Position numbers and translations under genes: made by a program. From Haliotis asinina (lineage: Eukaryota > Mollusca > Gastropoda > Lepetellida > Haliotidae), in assembly GCF_037392515.1 (NCBI RefSeq), contig NC_090290.1, positions 23,581,753 through 23,645,752 of the forward strand: a stretch of 64,000 bases of DNA, written 5' to 3'. Each line of letters starts with the position of its first letter. The first letter of the stretch is position 1. The notes beneath the pieces were generated by a model, which worked only from the letters and a program-made list of their open reading frames with translations, was not told the DNA's origin and did no database searches. This document shows, one piece after another, positions 4,098-40,940 of this stretch.

Positions 4098-5145
4098 TGG
4101 CCGTAGGATGAACGTTTCTAGTTTTGTCAATGCAGAATGTCTTTGTTTAGTTTATTGTTTGGGGTTTCCAACAGACAATCTGTAAAAATAAATATTCTGT
4201 TGTATCCCCAGTCAAAGATCTCCCGGAGAGAACGCCGGATCTCAGCTGAATATCACGCTTTTAGTAATAAGAAGAGCATGAAGTAGGTTTTGTAGCACTA
4301 TTGAATATTTGCTTGCGAATTCATCACCGACTACTTGTCCATTGACTGACCTCGGTTGGAAACTACCGACTAGTTGCATAGTTGCATGACGCAGCTCTCA
4401 GCGCTACAACTGCGGAGTAACGAAGGTATTTACTTGAAAGCGCCTATATTTTCCCTTTGTGGACACGCGTTTCTATTCTATTTTGTCAAAAGAGTATTAA
4501 TGTATTAAAAGATGCAGTAAGGCACTGTCGGTAATAGACAAAAAAGATCCAAAATCCAAAAATCCATTCCTCAGTGTTAGGGAGGAGGAAGGTAGGAAAC
4601 GCATAAGGCAACTTTACTTAGGAGATGTTAGTGTAGAAATAATCAATGGAGGCTTTTTATGATCAATGTAGGTTTTTAAGTCCAAAAGTCCAATATAAAA
4701 TTAGGCTTATCTTCGATATGAACGATTGCTGGCGTAAAAAAGTAATAACTCTAATATTGAAACTATGAAGATTGTGCCTACCATGGAATCTAACTATCAC
4801 TATCAAAACATATGTAATGGCTCGGTTAACCATCATTTGAAAGGACATTGGATATTTAGTTTTTAGGCTTCTCGGAGACAGAACAGGATGAAGTGTACTT
4901 AACCATTATATTATCTACTCGTATCTTCTGCACAATACCCGTGAAGATCAGGGGTAGACTTTCTCTTCAGTAACCCATGGTTGTCGTATAATGGACACCT
5001 CACATTCCCCACATCTATTGTTTAAAGATTGTACGTTAAGGCATACTATTGCAAAAAACCCATCAGTTTTCAAACGTGTTCAGCTCTTGTCCAAATGTTA
5101 AGCAATGTGGGTAATGAAGGCTTCACAGTTAAGACTTTTGATGTA
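4098..5145. other. no gene seen
   Basis: About 1 kb of AT-rich sequence with only short, unsupported open frames and no repeat family I recognise. Confidence 0.4.
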
Positions 5146-33270: not shown

Positions 33271-33510
33271 AGCTCATGAGCTGCATCTGGTAAGTACTGG
33301 GGCTCCACTGGAGCATGCACGTGACATTCGATCATAAAGTATGCACTGCAGCTCCATCTGGTAAATACTACAGCTCTACAAGGCATGCACTTGACATTCA
33401 ATCATAAAGTATGCACTTCAGCTCCATCTGGTAAATACTGGAGCTCCTCAAGGCAAGCACTTGACATCCGATCACAAATGTTGAAGTGCAGCTCCATGTA
33501 GTACATGCTG
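33271..33510. repeat. GAGCTCCAT tandem repeat, 70-bp units
   Basis: About four units with starts near 33280, 33351 and 33421 (period 70-71 bp). Each has GCTCCATCTGGTAAATACT, AAGGCATGCACTTGACATTC and ATCATAAAGTATGCAC. It runs straight into the left end of the 6.4-kb transposon. Confidence 0.85.
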
Positions 33511-33692
33511 TACGCTCGTTCTCAATAACTGGGTGCAAATGCTGTCGCCGTCATGCCTCTCTCAAATTTCCTTAACAAATATAATTATCAGTATGACTGA
33601 ATACTGGTAGTACCATGGCCTACATACATCATGCATAAACAGTCCAAAATACTCAAACGTATACTTGTTGTAGCTTCGATAACAGATCAATT

Positions 33693-34936
33693 TGAAATGT
33701 TCGTTACTGTCGCCGGTAACAATACCTCACCTTGCAGTTTAATTCACTGCTCTTTGGTGTTCATATACCCGGATATCTTTACATTGGGATATTATCATCG
33801 GTCAAAAGTATCCTCTCTGAAAACTGTGAAGCCACTGAGTTCTCCGTACGTAAATAATTTCATTTTAATGTCATGTCGCCAGTTTTGGAGAAATTTGCGT
33901 GATCGACTTTCAGCTTGGCATGTACATGTGTAAAACAAATCAAAATCTTACTCATTTACTTTAAATGAATACACTTTATGTTTAAATTAATGGTGTTTGT
34001 CATTATTTAGGGCTCAGAACATCCCTTTGCATGACATATCGCAATACATGCAAAATACCCCATGCATAAAGATAAGAGTGAAATCTCCGTTACCACTCAA
34101 AAGTTGGGGAATTAAGATATTTATCACATATTTTAAGTTACATTTAAACCATGAAGCATGTCAGGTGGGAAGGGGTAAAGAACATTCAAAACGGGTATGT
34201 AGTAATGGGAATTTCCTGATGTATTAGCCATATTATGTAATGTTCGTTACCAGTTTATTCGAAACTATGGCTTGAGAACTTCTGGTACCATTTTTCAATA
34301 CCACGTGGCTTTATGACGTCATGTTGATCTTAGAGGACCGCCATTTTATGAAATCAGGCTTCACGGTAATAAGTTCACCTATCCTAGCACTATGCATGTT
34401 ATATGATACATTGAACATGATTTCATCTAGTGTTTTTTATTTGATGATCGTTAAAGCCAGTGTTGATATAAAACCCGTTTCATTGCCTTTTCAATAGTCT
34501 AATTTGAGAACGAAAGAGGTTGAAATGTTCGTTACCAGAGGTAACGAACATTTCATAAAAGTTCGAACAATTTTTTTCTCAATCAACATTCTTTACACAA
34601 AAGAGTTTAAGCAAAGTTTGTTCATTTATAAATGATCAATTGTATTATGTACAGTTAAGACTGATTTTGAACCAGATAATAGTTGTTTTATAGACAGTTC
34701 TTAGCACATTGTTTAAACTATTATGGTTGTCTTTTTAACATTAAATCCAGTACAGGTTTTGAGGAGTGTATGCCAAATATCTGAATCAGATGAAGATAAC
34801 CTTATTGAATGGATGTTGAATAACAATGAAACAACTGGATTACCGAAACATATAACTTTTTAAGAAAAGCAATCACATGCTGTCATCATTTATTCTAGGG
34901 TAACGAACATTTCACAAAATGGTAACGAACATTTCA
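33693..34936. promoter_or_regulatory. left array of the GTAACGAACATTTCA motif
   Basis: Six copies: 33693-33707 (reverse), 34236-34250 (reverse, one mismatch), 34521-34536 (reverse), 34540-34555 (forward), 34899-34914 and 34921-34936 (forward, 22-bp period). The pair 34521-34555 is a perfect palindrome around AGA. The last copy ends about 52 bp before the transposase ATG. Probable transposase-binding or regulatory sites, inferred from copy number and placement. Confidence 0.8.
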
Positions 34937-35163
34937 CACGATGGATTGCATCAGTTACTGTTGGATCTTTACTAATTCAGGTATTGCAATGGGGAAAACA
35001 ATGGCAGAGATCTAAAAAGCTTACCGGGAGAGACTGAAGGCAAAAAACTACGAAGAATACTTGGCTAAAGAAAGAAAAAGGAGAAGCGATAGCTATGTAC
35101 TATCAGCCCAACTATCAAGGAGAGATCGCTTACGCCGGAACTTAAGAAACAAGGAAACCTTAA

Positions 35164-36439
35164 AGGTCACATGCAACCAAAAAATCAAACATAATTAAAA
35201 CACATTTATCACATATTCATGACATATAATATACACTGCTGCTTTTAAAAAAACAAATAAACACAATTATAAGCGTACAATCGCGATTCAAAAGTGCAAT
35301 ATTTTGTACTTGGGCTTACTTCCCCCGAAACGAAGCCCTCGGGAGACCGAACCCAGTCATAGCGGGTGGATATGCACTCAAGTGAAACGACGGCTTCCGA
35401 TTGGCTGTTTCATTTGCTGATATGCTAGGTTTCATTGTGTGTACAGAAAGATGATCTGTGTGATGGGTATTTTAGAAGTATAGCCAGTCACCAGAAAGTA
35501 AAATTCTTTATGGATAACATCTTCTTTTAGTGTACTTGATCCGTCGTTTCAGTATGGATTCATATACTGTTGTCAAACAAAATCATATACACTAAAATAA
35601 GTTGTTATCCATGAAGAATGTATATAGAGATGTTGGGTTTGGAAAATACATATTCTCTGAATTTGCGCTCGGTCCAATAAAAAGATCATGTCAGTAGAGA
35701 TAGTAAACTACTGCGCGGCTGGAATTTGTCATTCGTCCAAGTACAAAGCAGGACTTGAAACTGACAAGAGTTTGCACCAGTTTCCGTCAGATCCAGTCAT
35801 CCGAAAGAAATGGATGTAGTTTGTTTGCAACCCACAGACATAAAAACATGTCATGTGTATCACACGTGCCTAATTACATAATGTGGCGGACACGGGACTC
35901 GGGTGCACGAGTCATAAATCAGCTTATTTTCTTTATGTCGTATAGTCTGATAGGTGTTAAGTTCAAATCGCACGTGGTCAATGATTGAAGCTGTGTATTG
36001 CATGTTGTCTTTAGCAGACAGGCAGGCAGACATATAGGTGTGAATAAACCAGACACTGAGCTTTCTCTGTGACAGAGACTGCTCACCACAATCAACATGG
36101 TTTTTTTACGTAACGAGTAGATTATTTACTTGTTTGTGTACACAACCACGATTAGACTACTGCTCACGACCTCAGTATGCATACTGTTTCAAGCTCCGCG
36201 AATCTATTCACTGCGCATGCGTTATGGACGCAGCGCAGCAGAGCTGTTGAAACCAGTTTTCCCCCCAGCGCTGGGGGGAATTTAGTGAAACGTTTGAACT
36301 CCGATTTCGCAGGCTTTTTTTTCATCGCGTTTTTTTCAACTTTACAGATTGAATTGGCATTTTTTATGATTTGTTTCGGTAATTGCATACCAAAAGGTAC
36401 CAGAATCTGCAAAGTTGTGTTTTACGTTGCATGTGACCT
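35164..36439 (+). mobile_element. Kolobok-like non-autonomous element with TTAA duplication
   Basis: Terminal inverted repeat AGGTCACATGCAAC at both ends, flanked by TTAA at 35160-35163 and 36440-36443. It carries a THAP-type zinc-finger remnant. TTAA target plus THAP fits Kolobok better than piggyBac. Internal inverted repeats include 35499-35535 against 35589-35625 and the perfect palindrome at 36259-36280. No transposase catalytic domain seen. Confidence 0.85.
35688..35819 (+). pseudogene. THAP zinc-finger remnant
   Basis: 43 codons from ATG 35688: VNYCAAGICHSSKYKAG, then LHQFPSDPVIRKKWM and a stop, with FVCNPQ readable just beyond it. C-x4-C, the HxFP motif and RKKW are hallmarks of the THAP C2CH finger used by P-element and Kolobok transposases for DNA binding. 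The second half of the domain is lost. Confidence 0.75.
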
Positions 36440-37045
36440 TTAAGGAGGCATAGACAGAGAAAGAGAGCTATTGCACAACATGATGATGACAGAGCTCCAG
36501 CTCATGATTTGGACACAAGTGGGTATGACAGTCTAACAGATGGATCAAAGGCTCCACTTCTGGTGCAGATGCGATTCCCAAATCGAAGAAATGGACCCAG
36601 GAAACGGATAAGTCATGCTCTGGCTGCTAAAACTAGACAAGTCAGCAAGCTGAAAGACGATTTGCATAATCTCAAGAGGAAGTACAAGACTGTCCTAAGG
36701 AAGCTGCAAAGGAGAGGTAAAAGTGGTCCATCACCACCATCTCCACAAACACCAGGAAGACAGACAGCAGCACAAATTAGAAGAATGGGACTTACAAAAG
36801 ATCAACAGACGCGAGTAAAGAGACAACTGTTGCTTGGTAATGTTCTCTTGAAGGAATTGGCAACTGCGAGATCCAGTATCAAATCATCAAAGAGGCAAGC
36901 AGTTCACAATATCGTTGCTGGCAAGATTGTAAAGCGATACCGATGTATTAACATGTTGAGTCAAAAGACAGGTTTGAGTAGGAACAAGTTGGGCAAAGTC
37001 AAGTCAAAGACCATAGATCCTGTGCAATAGAGGCGGTTTCGAGAA

Positions 37046-38752
37046 GTGATGAGATTTCGAGAAGATGTCCTTCAGTTCATGAATAGAGATGATAACAGCA
37101 GAAATCTCCCCGGGAAAAGTGACAAAGTGAGCTCAAACACAGGAGAGTACGTACAAAAAAGAATACTAACAGATTACCTGGCTAATCTCCATCAAAAATT
37201 CCTTACAGAACATCCAGTCAAACTTTCTTTGGCTTCTTTCTGTAGAATTAGACCCAAACACATACTTACCACAGCCTTCATAACACGTGACTGCTGTTTA
37301 TGCACACGGCATCAGAACATGGCACTCATTCTGAAGTCTCTCAAGCTTTTTTATCCGGAGATCTCCCTGAATCCTGAAAAGTATTCTGAAAATCCTCGAA
37401 TCGATGACATCAAAGCAAACTTACCACATCCAGAGTTCACATATGGGCAATGGAAGAGAGTGCCTGTGGAAATAAAGGGCAAAACAAAAATGATTATGAA
37501 AATAGTCCAAGTCACCGAACCAAAGACAGTATTCTTTGAAACACTGAAACTTCAAACACTTGAATTCATCGATCATGTATCTCGGCTGAAAACTCAGTAC
37601 TCACAAATACGTGAATTGAAACAAAATCTTCCCCTGCATGAAGCTATTATTCAAATGGACTTTGCTGAAAATTACAATTGTAAGTCTGTTGAGGAAATAC
37701 AATCCGCCTACTGGAACCAGACCTCTGTAACTCTTCACCCAGTGGTAGTAGTATATACTCGACCTGTCGATGGCTCTGACCTGCGACATCAGAATTTCGT
37801 CCTGGTGTCCGACGAGATGAACCACAACTCCACCACGGTACTTACCTTTCTTAAATACATCATCCAGAAGGTGAAGCAGCTGGATCCCGAGTTGAAGCAT
37901 GTACACTACTGGACAGACAGTCCCACCAGCCAATACAGGAATAAGGCCATATTCAACTTAGTGGCTAATCATGAGGACGTGTTCAACATCACAGCTACCT
38001 GGAATTATTTTGAGGCCGGCCACGGCAAAGGGCCATGTGACGGTCTTGGAGGAACAGTAAAACGTATGGCTGATCAAGCCGTGAACGCTGGGAAAGCTGT
38101 CATTCAGGATTCGAAAGATTTCTTTGCCTGGTCTCAGTCACAAAACTGCTCCATGCCAAATGTGAATTTCCTCTTTGTGTCTACTGAAGAATGTGGAGCT
38201 ACTGCAGCATCACAGGCAAAGCTGAAGCTGAGGCCAGTGAAGGGAACCATGAAGATCCATGCTGTCAAATGCCAGGGCAGTGGGCGCATACACGTTCGTG
38301 ACACAAGCTGTTACTGTAACAGCTGTTTGGGTGGTACTGTGTGTGACACCTGGCGGGAGGAGACCACAGTCACCCAGGGCCAAGAAGACCGCAGTGTTCT
38401 GACAGAGACAGACGTGTCAGGTGTCACCTCTGCAGTTGTAAAGATGTCAGATAAAGCTGGGGTCTACGCAAGGCCAGAATACAATGTAGGAGATTTTGTA
38501 GCAGCGCTGTATTCTGGAAGATGGTATATTGGAAAGGTCGAGACTGTGGATCCGGAGGACTCTGAGTATGAGATCAATATCATGGAATCAAAGAAGTCTA
38601 ACTTCCAGTGGCCTGCACATGAGGACGTCATCTGGTGCAAGGAAAGTGATGTCATATGTCACATCAACACTCCTGTTCCATCTGGGAAGTCAAAGAGGAT
38701 GTACACTATCTCCAAAAGTGACAGACTTAAAATTGAATGTCATATGAAATAG
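37046..38752 (+). CDS. open catalytic part of the novel transposase
   Basis: 568 codons from an ATG that lies just after the in-frame TAG at 37028. A helical segment (KRILTDYLANLHQKFLTEHP) and a CxxC/H patch (RDCCLCTRHQNM) lead to the catalytic core. Putative triad: D205 in IIQMDFAENY, D291 in HYWTDSPTSQYRN, E323 in NYFEAGHGKGPCDG (DD31E spacing). A Cys-rich strip follows (TSCYCNSCLGGTVC). The C-terminus (YNVGDFVAALYSGRWYIGKV, FQWPAHEDVIWC) resembles a Tudor or chromo-barrel fold. Acts in the nucleus on its own ends, by inference. The protein made from this ATG would lack the N-terminal DNA-binding region. Confidence 0.85.
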   Translation: MMRFREDVLQFMNRDDNSRNLPGKSDKVSSNTGEYVQKRILTDYLANLHQKFLTEHPVKLSLASFCRIRPKHILTTAFITRDCCLCTRHQNMALILKSLKLFYPEISLNPEKYSENPRIDDIKANLPHPEFTYGQWKRVPVEIKGKTKMIMKIVQVTEPKTVFFETLKLQTLEFIDHVSRLKTQYSQIRELKQNLPLHEAIIQMDFAENYNCKSVEEIQSAYWNQTSVTLHPVVVVYTRPVDGSDLRHQNFVLVSDEMNHNSTTVLTFLKYIIQKVKQLDPELKHVHYWTDSPTSQYRNKAIFNLVANHEDVFNITATWNYFEAGHGKGPCDGLGGTVKRMADQAVNAGKAVIQDSKDFFAWSQSQNCSMPNVNFLFVSTEECGATAASQAKLKLRPVKGTMKIHAVKCQGSGRIHVRDTSCYCNSCLGGTVCDTWREETTVTQGQEDRSVLTETDVSGVTSAVVKMSDKAGVYARPEYNVGDFVAALYSGRWYIGKVETVDPEDSEYEINIMESKKSNFQWPAHEDVIWCKESDVICHINTPVPSGKSKRMYTISKSDRLKIECHMK

Positions 38753-38763
38753 AAAGTGACAAT

Positions 38764-39680
38764 GTAACGAACATTTCACTCCTAAACCAAAAATTCACAC
38801 CACTATTTGCTGTTAAGTTTTTTTTTCATGTTTCAGGGTTTATCAAGTATATGCACTGTGTATTTCATACGACAGACTTACAACTGAGCAAAGAAATAAT
38901 ATTGCAACATTAGTGACGATAATAACGAACATTTCATTCAAGTAACGGATATTTCTGACATTTCTATTCGATTAAATCAAGCAACTGTCCCATAATTTCC
39001 ATCATGTTTTGCTTTTAGTCTCATGTTGATTAGCCACAGTATTATTATTTGAAAGTCATGTCCCCGAAAAAACTGAATGATAAACAGTAAAATAATCTAT
39101 AGTGCACTTTCCCGCAATTTTATATTTAAAAATGTCTGAAAATAATGTCAATTTTGGTTTGGTTAAAAGAAACAAACATGCTTTTGATGCTCTTTACTAT
39201 TGTTTTTAGTTATTTACAGCTTTTAATATCTGGAATATGTTCAGTTGATGTTTATCTGAGGACAAGTTAGTGTTTCTGAAAACATGGCTTTGTCTGAAAT
39301 GTTCGTTACTTTTATAGTTGTTTGTATTTAGTGGTTAGAAAATTAGTAAATTTTGTTTCCTACTCAAAGAAACGACACGTTTGTTTAAAGAGTGAACAGT
39401 CAGAATCGTCGCGAGTATTTTTTCATTTCATGGAATTTTGCTTTATGTGTTTACTTCGTTCCTAAAGTTTGCTTGATGAATTTTGCTCGATATTTTCGTA
39501 TTTGGTATGTTGTATCCTTCAGTGTACTTGCTGGGAACAAGCCAGTCCACGTCGTAGGCTCACAGTTACGATGTTATGGAAACATATGCTTCCTAGCTCT
39601 GTAATGAGGAGAATGATTGCATCGTATGTGGTGTTTTCATTGACATAGTGGGTTATCCCTTGTTATAACGAACATTTCGT
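38764..39680. promoter_or_regulatory. right array of the GTAACGAACATTTCA motif
   Basis: Copies at 38764-38778 (forward, 11 bp after the stop codon), 38922-38936 (forward, one mismatch), 38942-38956 (forward, about three mismatches), 39295-39309 (reverse, exact) and 39666-39680 (forward, two mismatches). Together with the left array they bracket the gene; none seen inside the coding frame. Confidence 0.75.
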
Positions 39681-39881
39681 CTTCAGTATCTTCTTAGTGT
39701 TCACCTATTTGATAAGCTTGTGAAAATTTCAAAAGTGTTCAATTCTTGTTGAATTCCTGTTGGTTTTAGGCAGCCCAGTATGCCACCTATGCAAAATAAA
39801 TGCGTTCACTCAAATACAACTTGTTTTATTTTTCAACTTTTATGAGAGCCATTTGCACCCCGTTATTGAGAATGAGCGTGG

Positions 39882-39960
39882 AGCTCCTCAAAGCAAGCAC
39901 TAGTAAGTAAGCAATAGAGCTCCACCTGATACTTACTGGGATTTCATAACGTAACAAATT
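39882..39960. repeat. GAGCTCCAT satellite, right of the transposon
   Basis: GGAGCTCCTCAAAGCAAGCA followed by TAGAGCTCCACCTGATACTT. Continues the repeat cut by the transposon (compare GGAGCTCCTCAAGGCAAGCA near 33441). Confidence 0.75.
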
Positions 39961-40439: not shown

Positions 40440-40940
40440 CAGTGACTCCCTAAGACGCCCAGAGGCCCAGGGGATGTTCTATGAGACCTTCTATAAACGG
40501 CTAGAAGGTGACTCAATAAAACGTCCAGGAAGGGTTTCTTTCATGCCTTCTATTAACGTCCAGAGAATGGCTCACTAAAACGTCCAGGTGAGTGGCCCTG
40601 TGGGGCGTTCTATATAGAACCGTCCTGGGAGTTACTCTCTAAAACGTTCACGGAGCGTCTCTGTGAGACCTTCTATAAAGGTCCAGAGAGTGGCTCACTA
40701 AAACGTCCAGGTGAGTGTCCCTGTGAGACTTTCTATATAGACCCGTTCTGGGAGTGACTCTCTAAAACGTTCACGGGGCGTCTCTGTGAGACTTTCTATA
40801 AACGTCCAGAGAGTGACTCTCTAAAACGTCCAGAGAGTGACTCTCTAAAACGTCCAGGTCTCTTGAGGCCTTCTAGAAACGTTCAGAGAGTAATTCCCTA
40901 AAACGCCCAGAGAGCATATCTGTGATACCTTCTAGACCAG
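40440..40940. repeat. 59-bp minisatellite, left block
   Basis: Units of about 59 bp: GTGACTCTCTAAAACGT, CCAGGGAGCGTCTCTGTGAG, ACCTTCTATAAACGTCCAGA. Roughly eight diverged units. Near 40801-40860 a short 28-bp partial unit is repeated. Confidence 0.85.

Follow-up and report, generated by a model that had tools for sequence, protein, structure and literature searches.

What kind of transposon lies in this stretch of abalone DNA (64,000 nucleotides of Haliotis asinina contig NC_090290.1, hereafter the window, to whose full length all positions refer), and what should be made of the short sequence that recurs along its non-coding parts? To the first half of the question we can answer that the window locus is a real, decayed copy of a cut-and-paste DNA transposon, 6.37 kb long including a nested insert (33513-39878) and bounded by 29-bp terminal inverted repeats (33513-33541 on the plus strand, 39850-39878 on the minus strand) that differ at two positions. 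A first-pass annotation, made from the letters alone, had proposed a transposon with just such ends, of the DDE/D type and hard to place, and in this it was right; its limits (33511-39881) were drawn 2-3 bp too wide on each side. Taken as a whole, the evidence is probably best explained by a decayed Sola2-like transposon with a DDD transposase and an element-encoded protein that would act on spaced 15-bp sites. As a transposon it adds a new member to a known kind, and it is the oriented array of sites, with its recurring distances, that we think is worth following.

The analysed genome comprises 1.14 Gb in 159 contigs (contig and locus labels such as C2, C11, L021 or L028 are labels used within this analysis). 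Contig C14 holds six matches to the egg-lysin family of Pfam, each above the curated cut-off, with none in 14 control genomes; the family is not known outside abalones and their close kin, and the matches point to such a snail. A search of the whole genome with a 30-position end pattern, up to three mismatches being allowed, returned 12 matches and none for the reversed pattern that served as control. Four of these stay single ends and the other eight pair up into four copies of 6.37, 3.93, 3.95 and 2.57 kb, on contigs C11 (the window), C8, C4 and C2, so that the look for further copies with both ends that the first-pass annotation had proposed finds three besides that of the window. They are 88.6-98.6% identical to it over the aligned pieces, and the copies differ through internal deletions.

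These four make up family A, one of seven families (A, B, C, C2, D, E and F) told apart in a genome where the window protein has at least 97 match places. Family B includes L024-L030, L034 and others, which match L028 at 97.1-99.6% identity across 4.0-4.9 kb; C consists of L021 and L022 (99.96% identity over 5093 bp), C2 of L023 and decayed copies, D of L035, L036 and L038, E of L039, L040 and L055, and F of L032. The near-identity of copies within B and within C points to recent copying of these relatives, and the group of the window element is recently active. At the protein level C is 59% identical to C2, 51% to A, 38% to B (L028) and 27-29% to L035, L040 and L037, while the window protein is 52% identical to C, 50% to C2, 51% to F and 44-46% to the longer B matches. 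The relatives are mostly 4.8-6.1 kb long, and the ends of the families are related: they start with CGCTC, CACTC, CACCC/GATCC, CGCCA, CACCA, GAGTC or GCGTC/GAGTC, and those of most families carry CAATAA or a variant of it at positions 11-16.

A repeated 15-bp site and its spacing

What recurs in these elements is a 15-bp motif, GTAACGNACATT(T/A)CA, repeated 9-12 times per element in five families (A, C, C2, F and B). Allowing up to two mismatches, there are 12 non-overlapping sites in A, 12 in C, 11 in C2, 10 in F and 9 in B (L030), as against a mean of 0.02-0.10 in shuffled sequence, the shuffle being one that permutes consecutive dinucleotides; with at most one mismatch to the 13-base core, A, C, C2 and F retain 12, 12, 10 and 9, and B (L028) has 1. 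Simple counts of 12-mers find AACGAACATTTC 9 times in the window element and AACGTACATTTC-type 12-mers 10-11 times in C and 6 times in C2, where shuffles give two at most. The sites lie outside the coding part, with the exception of one in B (4145-4159) that overlaps the last 5 bases of a gene ending at 4149. Genome-wide, the exact motif has 100 matches, as against 29 for the reversed motif used as control. Of the 100, 55 are found no more than 6 kb from a protein or end match on the lists, 15 form clusters at five further places and the remaining 30 stand alone. Two of those five clusters were examined, one proving to be a decayed C2 copy and the other only a C2 5' part, and one already assigned cluster that was examined also aligns to C2. 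The genome-wide excess of the motif thus lies largely in these elements. Literature searches, including those on Sola subterminal binding sites, did not find this array, and searches with the motif and the end sequences returned unrelated papers only.

In the window element the array begins on the minus strand at 33693-33707, 181 bp from the 5' end (180-181 bp in A, C and C2), and continues on that strand with a site at 34079-34093 (two mismatches) and, 157 bp past it, another at 34236-34250. There follows an inverted pair (34521-34555), whose members start 20 bp apart and whose perfect 16-bp arms enclose a 3-nt spacer, and, 359 bp past the second member and just upstream of the start codon, a direct pair on the plus strand (34900-34936) with starts 22 bp apart. 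The 3' non-coding part holds further plus-strand sites at 38764-38778 and at 38922-38956, the latter being two sites (38922 with one mismatch, 38942 with two), then a minus-strand site at 39295-39309, some 570 bp short of the 3' end (the five families range from 547 to 576 bp), and a plus-strand site at 39665-39679. In A the distance of this last site from the 3' end is 200 bp; that of its counterparts is 199 bp in C, 198 in C2, 199 in F and 190 in B.

Measured from the 5' end, the sites of A start at 181, 567, 724, 1009, 1029, 1388 and 1410; those of C at 180, 377, 567, 722, 737, 1059, 1079, 1439 and 1462; those of C2 at 181, 320, 490, 812, 832, 1192 and 1214, with a weak one at 475; those of F at 554, 710, 725, 1045, 1065 and 1413; and those of B at 385, 574, 743, 1254, 1432 and 1453, with a weak one at 729. 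All five families keep one orientation in the 5' part up to and including the leading site of the inverted pair, and the opposite one beyond it, B being without the inverted pair itself and the strand of the F sites being less certain because the F motif is near-palindromic. Distances of 155-157, 320-322, 20, 359-360 and 21-23 bp recur between families, and 64 strand-matched distances are shared to within 2 bp; when sites were placed at random 2000 times, the mean number was 10.0 and the highest 23.

Is it the sequence between the sites that is conserved, or just its length? Three intervals bear on this: I1 (157 bp in A, 155 in C, 155 in C2, 156 in F and 155 in B, the sites used for C2 at 475 and for B at 729 being weak, with three mismatches), I2 (322 bp in C, 322 in C2 and 320 in F) and I3 (359 bp in A, 360 in C, 360 in C2 and 348 in F). 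These were picked after their lengths had been seen to agree, and so measure sequence divergence and are not an unbiased sample of intervals; of the 19 pairs, compared without gaps or with a single gap, 15 have an identity inside them close to that of shuffled sequence, and in most of those 15 the lengths agree to 0-2 bp. For example, C and C2 are 0.278 identical within I3 (0.279 when shuffled) over 342 bases, and C and B are 0.285 identical within I1 (shuffled, 0.272). The four pairs above the shuffled level are C and C2 within I1 (0.394 vs 0.285, z 3.0) and three pairs within I2 (z 2.2-2.7). BLAST of the 5' parts (E <= 0.01) found nothing between B and the four other families, nor between A and C2, and for the remaining pairs the matches listed include stretches of 15-52 columns, mostly at the sites. 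Judged from these sequences, the spacing is likely to be under selection.

What, then, might read the sites? Motif position 7 is A in 10/12 sites of family A and T in 12/12 of C, 9/11 of C2 and 9/10 of F, B being mixed (A 5, T 3, G 1), and position 13 is A in 7/10 sites of F and 8/9 of B and T in 11/12 of A, 12/12 of C and 11/11 of C2. The sites in most elements appear to have changed together, and there is little excess of the motif beyond the elements, two things to be expected of a binder that the element encodes and less so of a general host factor. We regard the 15-bp motifs as candidate sites of such an element-encoded protein, with a spacing that may be selected. The transposase would cut at the element ends, with 4-bp staggered cuts in AT-rich target DNA, and it, or another element-encoded protein, would bind the 15-bp sites, comprising candidates some 180-200 bp inside the ends and the array ahead of the gene. 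Binding could build a synaptic complex, control the element's own promoter, or both, and the several distances apparently held by selection suggest that proteins on neighbouring sites touch within one rigid assembly. Taken to its fullest form, which we put forward as possible and distinctly tentative, this would be a DNA ruler: a family-encoded protein would bind the oriented array, with the recurring distances given above and those of about 180 and 200 bp from the ends selected and the intervening sequence not, in a large rigid transpososome or promoter complex over 1.4 kb.

Several facts weigh against so tidy a picture. Families D and E have 0 sites at one mismatch to the 13-base core, F and B are without a listed site near 181, and the B sites are degenerate, L028 having no repeated 12-mer above the shuffled level. 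The families also share descent, so that shared distances are not independent observations, and some intervals differ (285 bp in A as against 320-322, and 348 bp in F as against 359-360). These last points would favour the explanation that the distances recur on account of some hidden feature between the sites, such as a second gene or a structured RNA, or simply through slow insertion and deletion, and the four interval pairs with identity above the shuffled level (z 2.2-3.0) could be read in the same way. Coding sequence or a conserved RNA is nevertheless hard to square with 15 pairs at about shuffled identity while most lengths agree to 0-2 bp, and the 64 shared distances lie far from the 23 that random placement reached at most, which leaves this explanation looking quite improbable to us. 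That the sites are read by a host transcription factor, and form a promoter or enhancer array and not transposase sites, we would call unlikely. The densest array does stand ahead of the gene, the bases at position 7 are mixed in family B, and in the alignment several families out of A, B, C, C2 and F show a splice-acceptor-like CAG a short way ahead of the start codon, which suggests a spliced leader exon that would lie inside the site array. Against this, the exact-motif excess lies mainly in these elements, the 30 unassigned single matches comparing with 29 in the reversed control, the bases at positions 7 and 13 are family-specific, and sites also occur about 200 bp from the 3' end. An element-encoded protein remains our preferred reader.

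Target duplications, catalytic core and superfamily

The flanks of the insertions, whose comparison the first-pass annotation had also proposed, favour a target-site duplication of 4 bp. Among the 19 insertions with both ends readable, 11 have an exact 4-bp duplication (TATA, ACAT, TCAT, ATAT, TTAA, ATTA, CATA, TAAT, ATAT, TGTA and TTCT, mostly AT-rich), compared with 10 of 342 mispaired left and right flanks. Lengths up to 8 bp were covered: there is no 2-bp excess (3/19 vs 59/342 mispaired), and a 5-bp duplication occurs in 2/19 and one of 6-8 bp in 0/19. Left out of the count are L031 (ends not identified), L026 (one end truncated) and L033, L036, L037, L038 and L040 (ends missing or unclear). 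Speaking against so simple a rule are the eight insertions without an exact 4-bp duplication, two of which have 5 bp, one of which (the window copy) has a mismatch and five of which have neither, together with the lower figure of 6/13 (A 2/4, B 4/9) for the two families, A and B, in which several copies define the ends. The other families give 5/6, the ends of single- or two-copy families having been set by hand and those of L023 and L039 shifted slightly, by a few bases, in sight of the flanks; for L025 the partner end lies at a distance of 12.9 kb.

The duplication of the window copy reads TGTA at 33509-33512 and TGGA at 39879-39882. A tandem repeat with a 70-bp unit (33279-33497) adjoins the insertion, the transposon sitting at its edge, and where a unit of this repeat (33438) reads CTGGAGCTCCTCAA, the right flank of the element reads TGGAGCTCCTCAA. 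CTGGAGCTCCTCAA is the likely uninterrupted site, so that TGGA was probably the original target.

The catalytic blocks quoted in the first-pass annotation are present in the window sequence, but its proposed DD31E triad is in our view better replaced. We think that the triad is more probably D205-D291-D332 (DD40D), the respective codons lying on the plus strand at 37658-37660 (MDFAENY), 37916-37918 (YWTDSP) and 38039-38041 (GPCDG). MDFAENY and YWTDSP, or near variants, are retained across most of the fetched loci. In an alignment of six sequences (A3), D476 and D518 of L035, which correspond to the window's D291 and D332, are invariant and the Glu of the earlier proposal is not; the first Asp is not invariant there either, L040 being broken at that point. 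All three loci of lineage E (L039, L040 and L055) have Ala at the Glu position and keep the Asp. A single-sequence AlphaFold model of the trimmed core shows the RNase H order b-b-b-a-b-a-b-a, with the first Asp (model residue 11) after strand 1, the second (97) after strand 4 and the third (138) at the start of a last helix that runs from 136, the Glu (129) falling in the loop after strand 5; in RNase H transposases the third acid sits at the start of the last helix. The mean pLDDT of this model is low (43.5) and we give it little weight, a single-sequence model of the full-length protein being poor as well (mean pLDDT 34.6). Foldseek with the core model found no PDB match at E <= 0.001, and its weak rows, which include herpesvirus terminase nucleases and HIV RNase H/reverse transcriptase among many unrelated folds, were not used as proof.

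The DDD assignment does have to contend with a second alignment (A1, seven sequences), in which only the second Asp is invariant, L028 having Gly at the third, and with replacement of the third Asp in L028, L029 and L046 (Gly), L031 (Asn) and L054 (His), although L031 and L054 carry stops. These facts speak for the Glu of YFEAGHGKG as the third residue, as does its presence in loci of families A, B, C, C2, F and D; moreover, two of the loci with Gly, L028 and L029, are recently copied, and the copies of lineage E are decayed, so that their Ala counts less. With the Asp retained in 3/3 lineage E loci that have lost the Glu, with the Asp invariant and the Glu variable in A3, and with the Asp opening the last helix in the weak model, we nonetheless consider the Glu a rather poor candidate. 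L028 and L029 (contig C12, family B) are 99.6% identical and both have Gly at the proposed third Asp, which suggests either that an inactive variant was copied in trans or that this Asp is non-essential; both may have been moved by the transposase of other copies.

To which superfamily does the element belong? The first-pass annotation had found that the catalytic blocks matched no signature familiar to it, and indeed Pfam DDE and integrase models gave nothing at E <= 1 for two window proteins and nothing at E <= 0.5 for seven alignment members, among which the best Pfam row was DUF5614 (E 0.0077, below its cut-off). A PDB sequence search with the window protein returned three rows (best E 0.08), none of which names a transposase, and the peptide blocks of the transposase were not found in literature searches. 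Some superfamilies can be set aside. Tc1/mariner elements have a TA duplication and a DDE_3/DDE_1-type domain, and here there is neither the 2-bp excess nor the Pfam transposase match, while hAT, MULE, P, Transib and Zisupton make duplications of 5 to 12 bp, lengths found here in two of 19 insertions at 5 bp and in none at 6-8 bp. Kolobok and piggyBac are alike in having a 4-bp target duplication, but theirs is TTAA-specific, as far as the portion consulted of PMC9587614 states, and TTAA is one of the 11 exact duplications here.

There remains Sola, described in the accessible part of PMC10741241 as having a DDD transposase, a 4-bp duplication, a size of mostly 2-9 kb and inverted ends of 11-1124 bp. 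The 4-bp duplication is seen (11/19 vs 10/342 mispaired, and 6/13 where ends are fixed by several copies), the ends of 29 bp and the lengths of 6.37 kb and mostly 4.8-6.1 kb fall within these ranges, and a third Asp is favoured by conservation and by the weak model, yet is not invariant in A1. For Sola2, the available portion of PMC3627910, on Sola2-Fanzor elements of Dictyostelium and Polysphondylium, reports a transposase of 888 aa and 4-bp duplications that are AT-rich, ATAT among them; these compare with the AT-rich duplications here and with proteins of 832 and 864-868 aa. On these mechanism-type features and by exclusion, the window element most likely belongs to the Sola superfamily and probably to Sola2. 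Of the two options in the first-pass annotation, Sola or an unnamed group, it is the former whose features are seen, in the varied AT-rich 4-bp duplications and the probable DDD triad, the comparison being one with published descriptions. It counts against the placement that described features and exclusion are its footing.

A DDD/E group outside Sola, as yet unnamed and sharing the 4-bp duplication by chance, is somewhat unlikely but deserves to be taken seriously, as no Pfam transposase model matched the two window proteins or the seven alignment members. We know of no Pfam model for Sola, a superfamily that reportedly goes back to Bao et al. 2009, and the Pfam absence accordingly says little. 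Motif-based scans of viral and prokaryotic collections also found no relative, though Sola is reported in bacteria too in what was available of PMC10741241; such scans depend on close motif matches, and distant bacterial relatives would escape them. The features of Sola that can be read from DNA are seen here and the DDD triad is favoured, so that Sola, and within it Sola2, is the placement we keep.

Gene, nested insert and neighbouring features

The first-pass annotation had described a single large gene, and one gene it is, but not an intact one. Its N-terminal part (34989-35162, plus strand) resembles the start of the C protein and carries a stop (TAA) in frame at codon 9, and the remainder (36443-38752, plus strand) is one frame interrupted by a TAG at 37028-37030 and contains the open reading frame 37046-38752 noted earlier. 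Between the two parts lies a nested insert (35164-36443), outside the element proper, with TTAA on both sides (35160-35163 and 36440-36443); neither the C8 copy nor the C4 copy contains it. With these stops and the insert in the gene, a full protein is not expected from the window copy. The insert is about 1.28 kb long with ends AGGTCACATGCAAC and belongs to a very abundant family, its end sequence occurring 5,236 times in the genome and not at all in the control; the family is possibly piggyBac-related. A second tandem repeat, with 59/123-bp units, is found in the window at 40478-40914.

Open frames are found in the relatives, with 844 aa in L021 and L022 (832 aa if counted from the start codon matching that of family B in the alignment), 865 aa in L026, 864 aa in L028 and 868 aa in L030. 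Intact relatives would encode one transposase of about 830-870 aa, with a basic N-terminus, an RNase H-like DDD core (which we regard as probable), Cys-rich strips and a Tudor/Agenet-like C-terminus. This putative C-terminal domain lies at 38456-38749 (plus strand) in the window. A profile of six C-terminal domains matched 12 PDB sequences at E <= 5, the top row being SAKe6FE (E 0.013), followed by nine chains of PHF1, PHF19 or PHF20L1 and two DUF724-like and Agenet proteins (E 0.034-1.3), and Pfam Tudor_4 matched one of seven members (E 0.11). The matched regions of PHF1, PHF19 and PHF20L1 are presumably their Tudor domains. The Tudor-like C-terminus of the first-pass annotation is consistent with the PHF and Agenet matches, each of which, like that to Tudor_4, is weak.

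The family D protein (1070 aa, L035:3722-6931) carries additional sequence that separates the catalytic core from the Tudor-like end, and an OTU-like reading of this sequence, made by eye, found no support in Pfam or PDB searches. The repeated 12-mers of L035 are a tandem array within its reading frame, and the 3' part of a family E copy (L039:5873-6292) holds a tandem array with a period of about 19 bp, in which one 12-mer occurs 22 times.

Significance and comparison with known systems

To our knowledge, Sola is among the least studied of the eukaryotic transposase superfamilies, and the parts of the Sola literature examined give no biochemistry for it. What this abalone genome offers is several families side by side, some with near-identical copies and open frames, together with a family-specific candidate recognition site, a combination that makes DNA recognition and the co-evolution of transposase and site directly testable. 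In a mollusc survey (PMC10294476), as far as its accessible text goes, Sola is apparently restricted to bivalves among the molluscs analysed, and if the present group is Sola, that statement needs widening.

How do these elements compare with what is already known? Like Sola2 as described in PMC3627910, they have AT-rich 4-bp duplications that include ATAT, short inverted ends and one long, probably DDD transposase (832-868 aa, compared with 888 aa); they also have the spaced 15-bp array and a Tudor-like C-terminus, neither of which is mentioned in the part of that paper available. If it is the spacing alone that is selected, selection on the geometry of DNA would be seen here in unusually clean form. 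We know of no eukaryotic DNA transposon for which such geometry-only conservation has been described. In En/Spm (CACTA), the P element and Sleeping Beauty, element-encoded proteins bind repeated subterminal sites, which in Sleeping Beauty lie about 165 bp apart within each end. These three systems resemble the present one in having repeated sites inside their ends and differ from it in their transposases and in the length of their target duplications. The sites described here, moreover, reach 1.4 kb inward, and several of the distances between them agree to 0-2 bp from one family to another while the intervening DNA is mostly unrelated.

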